Part shown: positions 18,962-27,372 of the stretch, piece by piece
Layout: every line of letters starts with the position of its first letter
How positions within the stretch are numbered: the stretch's first letter is position 1
From: Polytrichum commune
Taxonomy: Eukaryota; Streptophyta; Polytrichopsida; Polytrichales; Polytrichaceae
Assembly (NCBI GenBank): GCA_950295325.1
Contig: OX485803.1
Coordinates: 74,849,554 to 74,913,553 of the forward strand
Direction: 5' to 3'
DNA: 64,000 nt
Notes under the pieces: model-generated
The model's input: only the letters and a program-made list of their open reading frames with translations
Database searches by the model: none
Told to the model about the DNA's origin: nothing
Translations under genes and position numbers: made by a program

Positions 18962-19827
18962 TTAACTACCAATTTGAGATTATGGTTGCTTAAGCTTTCG
19001 GGCTAGATTAGCAACTCAAATTTCTAAGAATATTTTGTTTTGTATTACGGAGAATGCTTTATTTTGTATGTATAAGAATTTACCGTTTTAGATTGCTTTG
19101 CGATTTCCTATTCCATTTCCCTCCGTTTCACTTGAGATTGAGCTACTTGTTAGACTTGACAACATAAACCTGGCTCAAGTAGTAGAAGTTATTTCAATGA
19201 CCTCACACATCATTCATATAGTGCCAAACTCATGAGGCCAACAATGTTGAGGTTTTTATAACAACCTTGATTTCAGGACCTTCATGTTCTCAAGACTTGT
19301 TGACTCATACTCTACACATAGGTTTATTTGATTTGTAGGGTATTTCTAGACCCAGATTCGGGCAACAAAATTAATTTAGAATAAAATAAATGTGTAGGAT
19401 TGAGGGATGTACTTGCCGTAATATTGTTGTTGCCTACAAGCAGTGGAAAATTGTTGAAGTTCCAACCTCCACTTGGAGTAGCCATAGTGTTGAGGGCTAG
19501 GGTGAACGAGGTGCAACACTCGTACCCTGGCCGGATGGAAGTGGGGGTTGTCATCCTAAGGGCCCACCCGCACTCGGCCCACCCTAAACGTGCCGGTGCC
19601 GGCTTGAAACAGCAAGGCCAGGTTTAGCTCGGCCCGTTTTAGGTCCAGTCTGGCCCCCACCGCCACCTGACCGCCTCCTCTCCCCGCTACCCTCCGCAAG
19701 TCGCTCCTGGTTTCCCCGCTCCGCTCCGCTCCTCCGCCTGTGTTGATTGTAAGCTTGCTGATTTTGTAAGTTTTTTTCAATTTTTTGTTTGTTGTCCCGA
19801 ATTTTCGATCTGGTACGAAGATCCCGA

Positions 19828-20636
<809 letters not shown>

Positions 20637-21262
20637 TCATGTATTTGGTTTAGGATATGATCACAAATCCATGGGCATTAGGGATACAAAGGGAGCAAAT
20701 ACAACAAGTATTCTTGTACTTTCCAATAAAATGTAATGGTCTGCTTGATGACCATTCAATTCCACTATATTTTGTTATACATATCTGCTATGCCAAGATT
20801 GAAATAGGGTCTATATTGCAAAATAATCTTCTTTGTATGTTTCAAATATCTTCTTTGATGTTTTGCGTTGTTTGGGACTTGGGCATTTATTTCCCATTGT
20901 GCACATATGTTTTCAATGTACAATCTTTATTGCTCATGTGTGATGTGTATTCCATGTCACTTTTGCCGGTTTGCTGTGATCAAATTTTGCAAATGGGAAG
21001 GTTGTTTGTATATTGTGTGTATTCCATCTCCGTTCCAAAATATGATAACCACAACTACTTCTAAAGTTCTACCCTCGTGTATATACTCCAGAAATCATTC
21101 AATGTAGGCATTTACATCTCAACTCTAATGTATGAGAATATGATTTTTTTGTACTCAAATATTCATTGTTTTTCGTGTTTCTTTGAACTTCGCCTCACTC
21201 ATTTCAATTTGTGTAATAAGAAAATTTATGGCTTCCACATATTGTTGTTGTCATGTTTAATG

Positions 21263-21565
21263 CCACGTATAACACCTGAAACCATAATGTTCCCTCTTTC
21301 TTGCGTCAAGTTTAAGGGAACTGTGTCACGTATAGCGTATAAAATCAGAATGTTCCCTCTTTCTTGCGTCAAGTTTAGGGTTTAGTATCACGTATAGCGT
21401 ATACAATCAGATTGTTCCCTCTTTCTTGCGTCAAGTTTAGGGTTTAGTGTCACGTATAGCGTATACAATCAGATTGTTCCCTCTTTCTTGCGTCAATTTT
21501 AGGTTTAAACTGTCACGTATAGCATATAAAACCAGATTGTTTCTTTGTTGCCTTCGTCACATTTT
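21263..21565 (+). repeat. Left terminal array of the MuDR-like element, 62-bp tandem unit
   Basis: TGTTCCCTCTTTCTTGCGTC starts successive units at 21289, 21351, 21413 and 21475, with a diverged unit at 21538, so the spacing is 62, 62, 62 and 63 bp. Each unit carries CACGTATAGCGTAT. Two units carry TTTAGGGTTTAG, which contains a plant telo-box (reverse of AAACCCTAA). The array ends just before the ATG at 21627 and probably includes the promoter of the companion gene. Confidence 0.9.
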
Positions 21566-21626
21566 GGTTTTTATCACGTGTTCTCAAGCTAACACAAATG
21601 TTTTTGTTTCCTTATGTGTAGTGTAG

Positions 21627-22557
21627 ATGGCTCCATCAACGCCTGCCAATCTTGTGGAGAATCCAAATAATCTTCCACTTGCAATGAGAAATAAGCATTG
21701 GACTTTATTGGCAAATGAAGACAAATATTTGTGTTTAATCAATGGTTGTAAATCCAAAGGGTATACTGCCAAAAATCATTTTCGCAAGCATATATTGTCA
21801 CATATGCTTCATGTGTTTTGGGATACCACTGAACGTCCTAAAGGTGTTATTTCCAAACCTCGCATTCAAAATTAACGGAAGTTCAATGCCCTTGTTTTGA
21901 GCGATGAGATGGCGCGAAACAGAAAGAACTCAAACAACAAGAGAAAAAATGGTTGAAAGAGGCAACTAAAGCATGGGAGACATTGTCATCAATGGATACT
22001 CCTCACTTTGACAAAGAGAAACCAATGTTTGCTTGTGTATTGGATCCGGTGGTAAAGAAGTTTTTGGCAATTTCAGAATGGGGAGATCACATTTCTCCAT
22101 CCTGGTTCAACAAACTCATTATTGATACCGAGTTTGCCGAATATCTGAGATCCACAAAAAGTATTGCGGGTGTTGGATCTTTGAAACATGCATGGGCAAA
22201 ATCCACGTGGGAAGAACGTGAACCATCCCGCGAATATTTTGTAATGGAGTTTCTTCGTTGGAACAAGAAAATAGAGCACACAAGATTGTAAGTATTCCTA
22301 TTTGAAGTTTTACAATTTCAATCAATTTCTTTGTATTTATTTATTTATATGTTGTATCTTATGCTATGTGTATGTTGTATCATAGGTTAGAAGTGGGACG
22401 TGAAGAGTATGTGATATCTATTGTTGAAACACACCGAATCCGATATGAGGCAACGGCACCGCAACGCACCCAACGTATTGCGGAAGCGTGTGCTAGCTAC
22501 GCGGCACGGAATCCAAAGTTGATGGAAAAAATATATAGCAATGACAATGAAGTTTAA
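21627..22557 (+). pseudogene. Companion gene of the MuDR-like element, unknown family
   Basis: Exon 1 starts at 21627 and would run to 22287. An intron with good borders (GATT|GTAAGT, CATAG|GTTAGA; 22288-22385) joins it in frame to 22386-22557. A first segment (residues 1-82) contains CLINGC followed by HFRKHILSH, a C2H2-like zinc-finger spacing. The frame then breaks at a TAA (21873) and a one-base shift near 21930. It resumes as KEATKAWETLSSMDT ... DPVVKKFLAISEWGDH and, after the intron, THRIRYEATAPQRTQRIAEA. Full length would be about 300 aa. I recognise no family. Its position matches mudrB in maize MuDR, but I see no similarity I could claim. Confidence 0.55.
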
Positions 22558-22620
22558 TAGATATAACAATAAATTAATTTTGATGTACTGGTACATGACA
22601 AATATCAAATTGTCATAGCT
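22538..22620. repeat. 83-bp segment duplicated at 23573-23655
   Basis: GACAATGAAGTTTAATAGATATAACAATAA... through AAATTGTCATAG recurs about 1 kb downstream with scattered differences. The pair brackets 22621-23572, which holds dispersed-repeat pieces not obviously part of the MuDR-like element. Confidence 0.7.
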
Positions 22621-23021
22621 TCTTCTACTAGCGCTAACAGGAACATTATAGAGCTCATAGGTTTTTAACAACTTAGTCATGACTCTTGATTCTTAATTCA
22701 AACTATCGGTTATAGCATTGCCTAATTTCAACTAGCAAGTAAACCAAAATACTCTAAATGTATGTATCGCCTTGAAACAAATGATGTTGTGTGTGGTTAT
22801 GAACAAATGGTTTGTGAAGAACTTGTCATAGTCATTTCACATTCGATCCATCATGACATCGAGTCAACATTGTTGAAGCTTTCAACTTGGAAGCTCAATT
22901 GTAACACGATACTTGCTCAAACAAGCAAGTCCCGCATAACATGGGTTATGGGTTTGAATAATGTTATGAATTGTATAAGTAAGAAATTGATGTGAATGAA
23001 TATTTGATCTTATTATACATT

Positions 23022-23090
23022 TGATGTAAGATGACCATTTATTTTATGTAAGGTGTTAGTCGGAAGAGTCAAGGAAGCCCAACGGGAAGA
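23022..23090 (+). repeat. Dispersed repeat, SINE-free relative of 2065-2530
   Basis: TTTGATGTAAGATGACCA...TTATGTAAGGTGTTAGTC matches the two halves of host DNA on either side of SINE 2 (2068-2094 and 2465-2500) without the SINE between them. Similarity continues weakly through GAAGCCC. It serves as an unoccupied paralogous site. Confidence 0.7.
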
Positions 23091-23379
23091 CCCAATGTTG
23101 AACACATGTTATTTCCAATGCAACTATACAATCATCGCGACCCAAATGAACACTTTCCATGCTAGTTTTCCACCTGCCATGAAAATACTATTTGGTTGAA
23201 TCTAAACCCAGTAGTTGATTCAACAATTCTCCAAGGTGATAGGTTCTATATTCAATGTTAGAAAACTACAACTATCTATTAAGCATGAAGGCCACACCAT
23301 TTCCATAACGACTTCACCAAGTCATTTCATGAGCTCAACCTTACAAGGTGAACGTGCCCAAAAAGAATACAACAATAAT

Positions 23380-23545
23380 TGGACACCTATGTTGGACACC
23401 TATGTTGAAATAATATGCGGTTAGGTGTAGATCTGAAAATTAAAACTGGACATGTGCATAAAAGTTTGGAGGTCATGTTCAAATATGCTAACCATTAAGA
23501 GCTCGACATTCATGTTGATTAGGGGGGACTTATTTGAGCACTCAA
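23380..23545 (+). mobile_element. TA-flanked MITE, partial diverged copy
   Basis: ACACCTATGTTGAAATAATATGCGGTTAGGTGT, and later GGGGGGACTTATTTGAGCACTCAA, follow the order of internal landmarks of the MITE at 15837-16212. Ends are not preserved. Confidence 0.45.
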
Positions 23546-23799
23546 CGAGTAAAATATATATTGATTTGATATATACTGATGACAATGAAGTTTAAATAGA
23601 TATAATAATAAAATAATATTGATTAAGTGGTACGTGATAAATATTAAATTGTCATAGAAAGCTTTTGCATTTCATACATATATTGCGATTACTATAGATT
23701 TGACATTGTACCTAGTAATATTCAAATACAATATTATTTATTTGAATATTGTTTTTTATATTCACCGTAGTTTGCATCATATACCACCCTCACCCAATT

Positions 23800-26316
23800 T
23801 TATCGTTTCTTTGATAGTACCATATATTTTTCATCAAAATCCTTCAATCTTTTGATTGAATTCGGTGTGTCATCATCCATTCTTTCGAACACCACATTGG
23901 GATGCAAGTCACCCGCGTCTGATTGAATTTGCATTCTGTGCACATCTGTCAAAACACGTGACAGTATAGCGTGAGCGTGTAGAACAAGTTGGTGTACTCC
24001 CTCCTCGCATTCAGTTTTTATTGCTTGAAGTACTTCGTCCAATCGTTCTTGGGTACTTTCTTGGGTGAATCCTTGTGAAATACGCAATCCTTCACTTCTT
24101 CTTTATCTTCTTCCAACGCGTCGGAAATATTGCATAATTCCAAAACGCTATAGGTTTTTTCGTCCTCATCTTCGAAGAAATCATCAGGCACCGATGCCTC
24201 AAACATTATCCTTAATCTTCCTCTGTTTGTTCCAAAGTACGTTCCACAAAATTCCAACAACACACTCTCAGAAATATCAGTATGTTGCAAAATTATCACA
24301 CATTGGTGTTTACAAAAGTTTTCCCGAAGTCACCAAGGACATGAACAATAAACATACTTCAAATATGGACAAGAAACCTCGAACGAATGATCGGCATCAA
24401 GATATTTGACTATCCAACTCCCTCCCGCATATGTAGGTGGAACCATATGGATAGACTTAATATCCCTTGATTTTAAGATATTTTTTTGTACGATGTTTTC
24501 AATGGTTTTATTCACAACAAAATTATTGAATTTTCTTTCCATCAAATACATATAGTGATTTGAAACGGGTGTACATAAACGCCACACCAACCAATCCACT
24601 TTCCGACTTTGAAGACCTCGCACATCCGTATTCAACCACCGTTTTAATGCCCAATGATATGACTCAATATTTGATTAAGTGTCGATATTGGAATGCGGTA
24701 CCCTCCGAATGCCAACGGTCCAAAGATCTACAAAATTCCAAAAATCCATAATGTTGGAAAATACTACACCTCAACTATGTGAATATATTTGCACGACAAA
24801 ATAAAATTGGAAATATGTAAATAATATGAATATAAATAATATAATGTATTTATAATTGGAAAATAATGTGAAGAAAAATATTCAGCAAAATCTTGAAGTA
24901 CGTGACCATCATGTTCCCATACATTTTTTGCACAAGACATGATTCGATCGAAAAATAATTGTTCGTCTTCTTTATGTCCCAATTGTGCGTACATCCACAT
25001 TCGACATTCGTTGAATACGAGATTCCGTAAAGAAACGTCCTTGATCTTTGAAATTGTCGTTTTTTTCCAATTTTTGAGAATGTGCCATGCACAAAGAAAT
25101 ATAGGAACATTTTCATCCCGCCACACAAATTTATACAAAATATAAACTTGTTTATAAATGCCAAATAAATGAAACAAAAACTAATAAAAGCAAAATGAAA
25201 GACGGACGAGAATATTACGTACTTTATAGCATTCCGTTCGTGAATTGCATTATCAACGCTAAAACAACTAAGACGCCATTCGGGTTGAAGTGTAATCGCT
25301 TTCGCACGCAACACCATCAACCATTGGATTAAATCGTCTTCTTTTTGTCTTGATGTAATGACCCAAGCAATTGGCACGCCATTGCGAAAATCATCAAATA
25401 TCATCAAAGTGAACAAATGGAATTTCATGTGGTTGGTATCAAATGTGGCATCCATCGAAATTGCTCCGTGATTAGCCCATCTCAACATCGCCTGGAATTG
25501 CCATTGCATTTGAATGCCTAAAATGAAATAATATCCTACGACATCATCTCTATCTTGGGAGAAAAATACGGAGTCTTGATTTTCAAGTGCCCACATATAA
25601 ATACTTCAGGCATCGTTTTTATTTCGGTACCAAACACCCATCCTTTGTCGTCCCTCATAATATCTAATATCCCGTAAAGAAAGAAAATCGTCTTTTGATG
25701 TTTGCAATTTGTGTTTAACACGGTCTATCCAAATTTTCTTGTGCACCTCATAAATATATTTTGGAGTGTGACCTTTGTATAATTGGTCTTGAACCCAACT
25801 AATAAGAGCTATACTAATCCGAGGTTCGTATTGAGATTTTTTAGAGTTTGAGGATGGATCTTGGGGACCGTGAGCTATTAATCCATCTAGCCTTTTATGT
25901 TCAACAACATAATAGGCAACCTCTGCGATATGGGAAAATTTGTATAGTTGTTTTATAAAGAAACGAGTAAGACAACCCATTTCTGTAGATCTTTTGTGTA
26001 TTAGATCATGTCTGTGATCTTGTGGCCCATATGCACATTCATAATGCGTATGTGATATGAATGAATCAATTTGAGGACGTTGAAGATTAGTTTCACCCAC
26101 AAATGTTCTCTCAATGTTCCATTGTATTCTTCTGTGCTCTCCCAAATGTTGCCCTTCGATGAAATCCGAAACACGTTCCCACAAAATAAAAGCAAAGAGT
26201 ACGGAAGTAGAATGGGCAAAACCTTGCCTAGTTTTGTTGGCCCACTGAAGATCTCCATATCTTATAGATGTTGATGTTGGATTTTGAACATGCAAATTGG
26301 TTTGTTTCCTTCCCAT
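23800..26316 (-). pseudogene. MULE-type transposase with SWIM zinc finger, disabled
   Basis: The frame starts at 26316 (MGRKQTN). The catalytic region keeps the MULE order: ISMDATFDTNHMKFHLFTL (first Asp, near 25460), FSVDNAIHERNAIK (second Asp, near 25250), CAWHILKNWKK (the C-x-x-H motif of these transposases, near 25070) and NIESYHWALKRWL (near 24650). A SWIM finger near 24310-24345 reads CSC, then a TGA, then CKH, so the stop falls inside the CxC...CxH finger. Other breaks are a TGA near 25602, apparent introns near 25140-25215 and 24770-24880, and a frameshift near 24085 before an acidic C-terminal segment (TQERLDEVLQAIKTECEEG). SWIM-bearing MULE transposases are standard for the superfamily. 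The many breaks make this copy inactive. Confidence 0.8.
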
Positions 26317-26446
26317 TGCTGCAAACCTAACAACAAACATAATATGCATGATCAATATCTAATATTTAAGAGAACATGTGTATGATTTCATAAGTTGAAG
26401 CGCTTGCTTTTTGAATTCTATCTCCATGCACACATCTGGTAGATTA

Positions 26447-26543
26447 TGCTATACGTGACGCAAAACACCTTAAACTTGACAAAATCAAGCTTGAAGAGCT
26501 GAGTCTAACTGCTATACCTGACATAATATTTTGAAAACCTGAC
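26447..26543 (-). repeat. Right terminal array of the MuDR-like element, 63-bp spacing
   Basis: TGCTATACGTGAC...TTAAACTTGAC (26447-26480) recurs in degraded form as TGCTATACCTGAC...GAAAACCTGAC (26510-26543), 63 bp away. It is the inverted counterpart of the left array and lies directly upstream of the transposase start. Confidence 0.7.
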
Positions 26544-26590
26544 AGATCATGTAATCATATTGAATAGTAATCATGTTATATGCATAAACT

Positions 26591-27372
26591 AATGCAATCA
26601 TATTATATGAAATGTAATAATATTGAAAGAACATGAAATTCAAACAAAATATAAGATCTTCATCCTAAACCCTAAAACATAAAACAATAGCAAACACAAA
26701 ATAATGCACTCATACCTTGTGAGAAAGTTGAAGTTGACAAGTACAAGAATGAATGCTAACCTCTTATATATGCTTGATGGCATCCTAAACCCTAATAGAG
26801 ATAGGTGTATAGATAGGGCTATATATTTGTGTTATATTTCATTGGCCATTTCATATCCAAAAATGGAGAGATACACAATAAAGTTGAGGATATTGTTTTG
26901 ATTTGTCATAACTGAATAGCTCTCAAACCATTGGTTTTCTACAATTGTTCTTAAATTGAAGTAAACCATTTATACTCATGCTTTGCCTTTACCTAAATTG
27001 AGATGGACAACCTTAGGTGTACATTCATGCATGGCTTGTCGATAATATAAAGAAAGGTTTGATTTCAACTTTTGTCGGTGCTATTTTTTCCAATGCCAAC
27101 TCGTGCACTTTTTTGAAAGGCCTTCTTCTCCATGATGTAGGATGAGAATTTGAAAGTCATCCGCGAGGCTTTCATCAACCAAGGTACGAGTGTTGTAGCC
27201 GGTTCCCCCTGGCCAGTGTTGAGGAGCTATGGCAACTCTGGAAATCTTGTAGACACTTTAGTGAATGACAAAGACTCTTGGGTTGAGGTGGATTGGTCCT
27301 TTCCACACCTCATAAGAACGTCAATCATCTAAGGATGATGATCATGGTGATTATGTCATATAATGATTATAT
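26591..27372. other. No gene recognised
   Basis: AT-rich DNA with two CATCCTAAACCCTAA telo-box phrases (near 26660 and 26782). A 60-codon plus-strand frame at 27150-27332 resembles nothing I know. Confidence 0.4.

Follow-up and report, generated by a model that had tools for sequence, protein, structure and literature searches.

We analysed a 64,000-nucleotide stretch of the Polytrichum commune genome (assembly GCA_950295325.1, contig OX485803.1, positions 74,849,554 to 74,913,553 of the forward strand; hereafter the window) and found that it contains a 7,720-bp element at 19495-27214, which is a dead member of a family of low-copy, autonomous-type Mutator-like DNA transposons (Mutator-like elements, MULEs). 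The element carries two convergent genes, the transposase gene T and a second gene, B, whose product is probably a C2H2 zinc-finger protein, as judged from its sequence profile and its ligands. Tandem arrays adjoin the genes, and their units differ between the family of the window copy (family 1) and two sister families (families 2 and 3). We consider the chances about even that B would be an element-specific DNA-binding regulator acting on the arrays of its own family, as an activator or as an anti-silencing factor. The host genome comprises 408 Mb in 64 contigs, and all counts in it are to be read as "at least".

A convergent two-gene MULE with short ends

The first-pass annotation placed a transposon at 21250-26590 and took its ends to be terminal repeats built from tandem units. 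The homology with other copies passes beyond both positions and ends at sharp common points, which set the limits of the element at 19495-27214. Its terminal inverted repeats are imperfect and 32 bp long, and it is flanked by a perfect 9-bp target duplication. Because the homology among copies continues to these common boundaries, the arrays are not the ends, and we rejected them as termini; they are internal, adjoin the genes and lie about 0.7 kb and about 1.75-1.8 kb inside the element ends. Long terminal inverted repeats are absent, and only the imperfect ones of about 32 bp are present. With up to three mismatches allowed, the left-end pattern occurs at 7 places in the genome and the right-end pattern at 6, and the reversed control gave 0 in each case. 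The 9-bp target duplications that had been anticipated flank all five family-1 copies in which both ends were located (the window, C1:72.16M, C2:68.72M, C5:21.68M and C4:18.56M), with one extra base at the duplication junction at C2:68.72M.

T reads from the minus strand and B from the opposite one, and both genes are spliced and read inward, as the first-pass annotation had proposed. T contains MULE and ZSWIM Pfam domains. PF10551 is above the cut-off in T of the window (3.6e-6), of C2:68.72M (9.4e-8) and of family 2 (3.2e-13), and a SWIM match in a later T exon falls under the cut-off. The element therefore combines a MULE transposase domain, a target duplication in the 8-11-bp range (9 bp) and terminal inverted repeats, and its membership in the MULEs implies cut-and-paste movement. 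The same two genes are found at other family-1 loci. Compared with T at C2:68.72M, the window T has in-frame stops and one frameshift. At C2:68.72M, the long T frames are open and B is open too, while at C1:72.16M T has a stop and B is open; the B exons in these open copies are 221 and 56 codons long.

Gene B belongs to the element

Queries with B from the three families gave 65 B loci. Among the matches listed, 38 of the 65 are convergent with an opposite-strand T within 16 kb, and one more has a T within 16 kb in another arrangement. Random placement gave a mean of 0.196 convergent pairs and a maximum of 2 in 1000 trials, and we thus rejected the possibility that B is a chance neighbour of T. 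Seen from the T side, in a count drawn from the best 39 T matches listed, B faces 26 of the 35 closest T loci, and one of the nine unpaired loci has a B 30 kb off. The first-pass annotation had named copies with the transposase only as a case that would speak against it. This case did not arise, as B faces T at seven of the eight close-family T loci among the matches listed (at least 60% identity). One of these seven is a chimera with a diverged B; at the eighth locus, C4:2.08M, T and a right end are present, but the stretch examined contained no B. At L005 (C7:8401200-8409000), a diverged family-1-type B adjoins a main-clade T. This chimera, which is apparently a fusion of two copies, was kept in the pairing and co-divergence tests, and its T (<100 codons) fell out of the comparison of nonsynonymous and synonymous substitution rates (dN/dS).

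The three B families recognise each other in searches (best E-values of 1.5e-8 for 2 vs 3, 2.5e-8 for 2 vs 1 and 1.1e-5 for 3 vs 1). B evolves faster than T, with 20-30% identity between families compared to 43-47% for T. The distances of B and T nevertheless agree across 19 elements (Mantel r 0.88, with 0 of 2000 permutations as high), L011, L013, L016, L017, L018 and L037 having been left out of this test. For dN/dS, we used 12 B loci and 10 T loci, in pairs involving the window, L001, L002 or L005. Between family-1 subfamilies, dN/dS was 0.10-0.24 for B and 0.16-0.19 for T at saturated dS (>1), which indicates purifying selection on B between these subfamilies. The constraint is weaker among close copies, and this counts against the role that we propose for B: close copies gave 0.28-0.61 for B and 0.37-0.90, once 2.06, for T, and family 2 B gave 0.37-0.63.

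We also considered a passenger explanation, in which B is a host gene that the element picked up and the arrays are neutral minisatellites. Capture of host DNA did occur in the window copy (see below), and 26 of the 65 B loci have no T match within 16 kb among the matches listed, which also weighs against the role that we propose for B. However, B is found with T in three families, it appears to be under purifying selection between subfamilies, and the array core described below is kept in both arrays at a fixed spacing; a neutral passenger is thus very improbable. Taken together, the pairing of B with a facing T, the purifying selection on B and its co-divergence with T in three families mean that B is part of the element and no passenger.

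B probably encodes a C2H2 zinc-finger protein

A profile built from B of all three families matched C2H2 fingers in the PDB, with YY1 (2.3e-5) and GLI (4.3e-5) first and ZNF410, TFIIIA and ATF-2 next (0.003-0.006). All four zinc ligands (two cysteines and two histidines) are intact in 11 of the 16 family-1 loci that have the finger region, and family 3 B has the canonical C-x4-C-x12-H-x4-H arrangement. The assignment to the C2H2 proteins is probable on the basis of this profile and these ligands. Several results weigh against it. A zinc ligand is lost in the other five family-1 loci (L006, L012, L013, L014 and L016), and family 2 B has an odd C-x8-C spacing, with a longer first loop. Pfam scans with single B sequences gave nothing above the curated cut-off (weak matches to ARS2 at 0.23 and TEX13 at 0.042), and single-sequence PDB searches were empty for family-2 and family-3 B and weak for family 1 (TFIIIA, 0.11). 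A family-1-only profile leaned towards a finger of this fold, with Sp1 at 0.13, but this is not significant, and unrelated proteins came close behind. All five loci that lost a ligand carry damage in B.

A single-sequence structure prediction for a 127-aa window piece of B had a mean predicted local distance difference test score (pLDDT) of 43.7. No DUF1985, DUF287 or PMD was among the Pfam matches of B; a genome search with PMD was silent, but its controls were silent too. A 66-bp direct repeat, 85% alike, is present at the end of gene B (22553-22618) and between the genes (23592-23657), and related stretches occur in other family-1 copies.

Each family has its own gene-adjacent arrays

The 62-63-bp units noted by the first-pass annotation are real: the left array has five of them, and the right array has two, which are degraded and in inverted orientation. 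The last core TGTCACGTATAGCRTATAMAAYCAGA in family 1 starts 110-116 bp before the B ATG (7 copies), and the nearest core lies 143-145 bp before the T ATG (5 copies). With up to three mismatches, the core has 32 sites in the 408-Mb genome and the reversed control has 0; five base shuffles of a 10-kb stretch gave 0 core matches at the same mismatch limit. All 32 sites are within 10.3 kb of a family B or T, and the most distant one (C1:12739755) falls within DNA alignable to the element. Two units precede B in the diverged family-1 members L005, L007, L008, L009 and L018, and another two lie between the genes in L008 and L009.

Families 2 and 3 have arrays with units unrelated to those of family 1. 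In family 2, a 94-95-bp array lies between the genes in all four copies examined, and a 177-bp array precedes T in two copies, L034 and L035. In family 3, a 61-bp array lies between the genes in all three copies examined, and a short core occurs again before T. Families 1 and 2 have similar terminal repeats, so the arrays changed while the ends did not.

The family-2 element is about 9.5 kb long and was seen as L034/L047 at C2:38.00M and L035/L041 at C6:23.10M. Between L034 and L035, which occupy different sites, sequence similarity is 99% over 8.0 kb and 94% in a stretch of 0.7 kb at the B end; the presence of near-identical copies at different places suggests that this pair moved recently. 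The target duplication is perfect in one copy, and the second copy has no clear duplication. B is open in both, and T is open at C2:38.00M and has one TGA at C6:23.10M. This stop in T, the lost zinc ligands and the weaker dN/dS of close copies concern decayed copies and not the anatomy of the element.

The sequence GTATTGCA is common to one diverged family-1 unit, the family-2 unit and the family-3 unit, which was reached in 22 of 20000 plain base shuffles, and a 9-mer common to the family-2 and family-3 units had a P of 0.0455, also against plain base shuffles. The evidence for a common GTATTGCA core is weak. This core was defined post hoc, and the diverged family-1 unit was picked after seeing it; the units of the window read GTATAGCG or GTATAGCA instead, and a three-way test with the window unit found no common core. 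In addition, families 2 and 3 showed no core array upstream of B. These points all detract from the idea that B acts on the arrays.

How the arrays and B may work together

In the mechanism that we propose, B would bind, through its finger, the core repeated in the gene-adjacent arrays of its own family. By analogy with VANC and with TnpA (see below), this binding would switch on T and B of that family only, or free them from silencing. The sister families have the same pair of genes and different arrays, a pattern that fits a private lock and key for each family. That two distant sister families follow the same plan with different repeats points to a separate switch for each family.

The arrays could instead be binding sites of T, that is, subterminal repeats used for synapsis, with B as an accessory factor for integration in the manner of MURB, which is required for MuDR insertion (PMC9168764). 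A core does lie upstream of T in all three families, and since T and B co-diverge, either of them may be the partner of the array. However, the arrays lie about 0.7 and 1.8 kb from the ends and keep a fixed distance from the start codons, families 2 and 3 have an array between their genes, and families 1 and 2 share like terminal repeats while their arrays differ. We consider T binding unlikely.

Alternatively, the arrays may be targets of an element repressor, with B as a copy-number control, or of host small-RNA silencing. The copy number is low (with up to three mismatches allowed, family 1 has 7 left ends and 6 right ends), and the targets of RNA-directed DNA methylation overlap those of VANC1 and VANC6 (PMC10398659). 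Selection would have no obvious reason to retain a pure repressor together with T over three families. This explanation seems distinctly unlikely, and a regulator that activates or protects its own family is our preferred reading.

Captured host DNA and other features of the region

The coordinates of the features in the window are collected in Table 1. In the left arm, part of a host NAD(P)H-binding gene lies between the element ends, as in a Pack-MULE. Its source is at C6:33465706-33466214, and the source protein matches PF13460; by its sequence identity, the fragment is a recent Pack-MULE-like capture in a transposase-bearing element. The ~13.85-kb tandem unit to which the adjoining stretch is related lies near several chromosome ends and on contig C62. 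We rejected this subtelomeric unit as rDNA, as one unit (13.9 kb) had no Rfam rRNA match; an Rfam scan of the window also gave 0 matches. The left arms of L001 and L002 contain GC-rich tandem repeats with 30-46-bp units, and other copies have different sequence there. The left arm seems to be often replaced. Elsewhere in the assembly, contig C8 has an open rbcL-like frame that matches the RuBisCO profile over its full length, and the host is therefore photosynthetic.

Table 1. Features of the element and its flanks (positions in the window)
Feature	Position	Strand	Remark
Left target duplication, 9 bp, AGTGTTGAG	19486..19494	.	same letters as 27215-27223
Left terminal inverted repeat, about 32 bp, imperfect	19495..19526	+	genome pattern search
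Stretch of 256 bp, 90% identical to ~13.85-kb tandem unit	19820..20075	.	
Captured fragment of host NAD(P)H-binding gene, start codon to residue 126	20072..20580	-	98.2% DNA identity
Left array, five 62-63-bp units	21249..21560	+	before gene B
Left-array cores TGTCACGTATAGCRTATAMAAYCAGA	21261, 21324, 21386, 21448, 21511	+	
Gene B, second gene, C2H2-type, two exons	21627..22557	+	frameshifted in window copy
Gene T, MULE transposase, exon ends approximate	23800..26316	-	stops and frameshift here
Right array, two degraded units, inverted relative to left array	26434..26540 (limits approximate)	-	upstream of T
Right-array cores	26435-26460, 26498-26523	-	
Right terminal inverted repeat, about 32 bp, imperfect	27183..27214	-	genome pattern search
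Right target duplication, 9 bp, AGTGTTGAG	27215..27223	.	

Comparison with known systems

MuDR (mudrA/mudrB) and the present element both have two opposite-strand genes and a 9-bp duplication. The terminal repeats of MuDR are about 220 bp long and hold its promoters, whereas the present element has short repeats, has its arrays inside and lacks long promoter-bearing repeats. TnpA of En/Spm is a second DNA-binding protein that acts on repeated motifs within the ends, but En/Spm belongs to the CACTA superfamily and has a different transposase.

The first-pass annotation implied that a two-gene element outside Zea would be new. Opposite-strand second genes have been published, and convergent two-gene plant MULEs outside Zea are already known, with ORFR of Abermu and antisense PMD genes as examples (PMC9168764, PMC6446971). 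Abermu, also a MULE of plants, has a 9-bp duplication and a rapidly evolving ORFR on the strand opposite the transposase; its type II has two genes, and no MURB similarity is reported for ORFR in the available text (PMC9168764). The present element shares the 9-bp duplication and the opposite-strand second gene with Abermu, but Abermu has terminal repeats of 138-145 bp and TA-rich targets, compared to about 32 bp here (PMC9168764). The portion available of that description mentions neither gene-proximal arrays nor a finger in ORFR (PMC9168764). The MUDR/MUDRAVI2 groups also have an antisense second gene, with a PMD (PMC6446971), while B has no PMD match. For Mutyl (mutB, Yarrowia) and Spectre (arthropods), a C2H2 finger and a second open reading frame are listed, but these are fungal and animal elements (PMC6446971). 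This source describes mutB as same-strand in its text but lists it as antisense in Table 1; for Spectre, the text has two frames and the table one. Unlike Pack-MULEs as described there (PMC6446971), the present element keeps its transposase genes.

The closest functional likeness is to VANDAL elements of Arabidopsis, in which VANC binds a short motif in tandem repeats and the elements escape silencing (PMC5735166, PMC10398659). Both are MULEs with extra genes and have a family-specific short motif in noncoding tandem repeats, also upstream of the transposase (PMC5735166, PMC10398659); this is a likeness of function and not of membership. VANC has DUF1985 and DUF287 (PMC5735166), B shows neither, and full VANDAL21 copies have three genes, compared to two here. 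A literature search, mainly of open-access sources, returned no MULE of plants in which a convergent C2H2 gene is combined with family-specific gene-adjacent arrays, an absence that is unproven.

Beyond the role of B itself, it is conceivable, although we hold this with some doubt, that an ancient MULE lineage has its own C2H2 protein and a private repeat address, which would have changed together in at least three families as a lock and key for activation or anti-silencing that arose independently of VANC. The copies in which both genes are open, C2:68.72M for family 1 and C2:38.00M for family 2, provide protein and array pairs suited to swapping. If the proposal is true, B would be a second, unrelated type of protein with VANC-like array logic, which would mean that this solution arises repeatedly.

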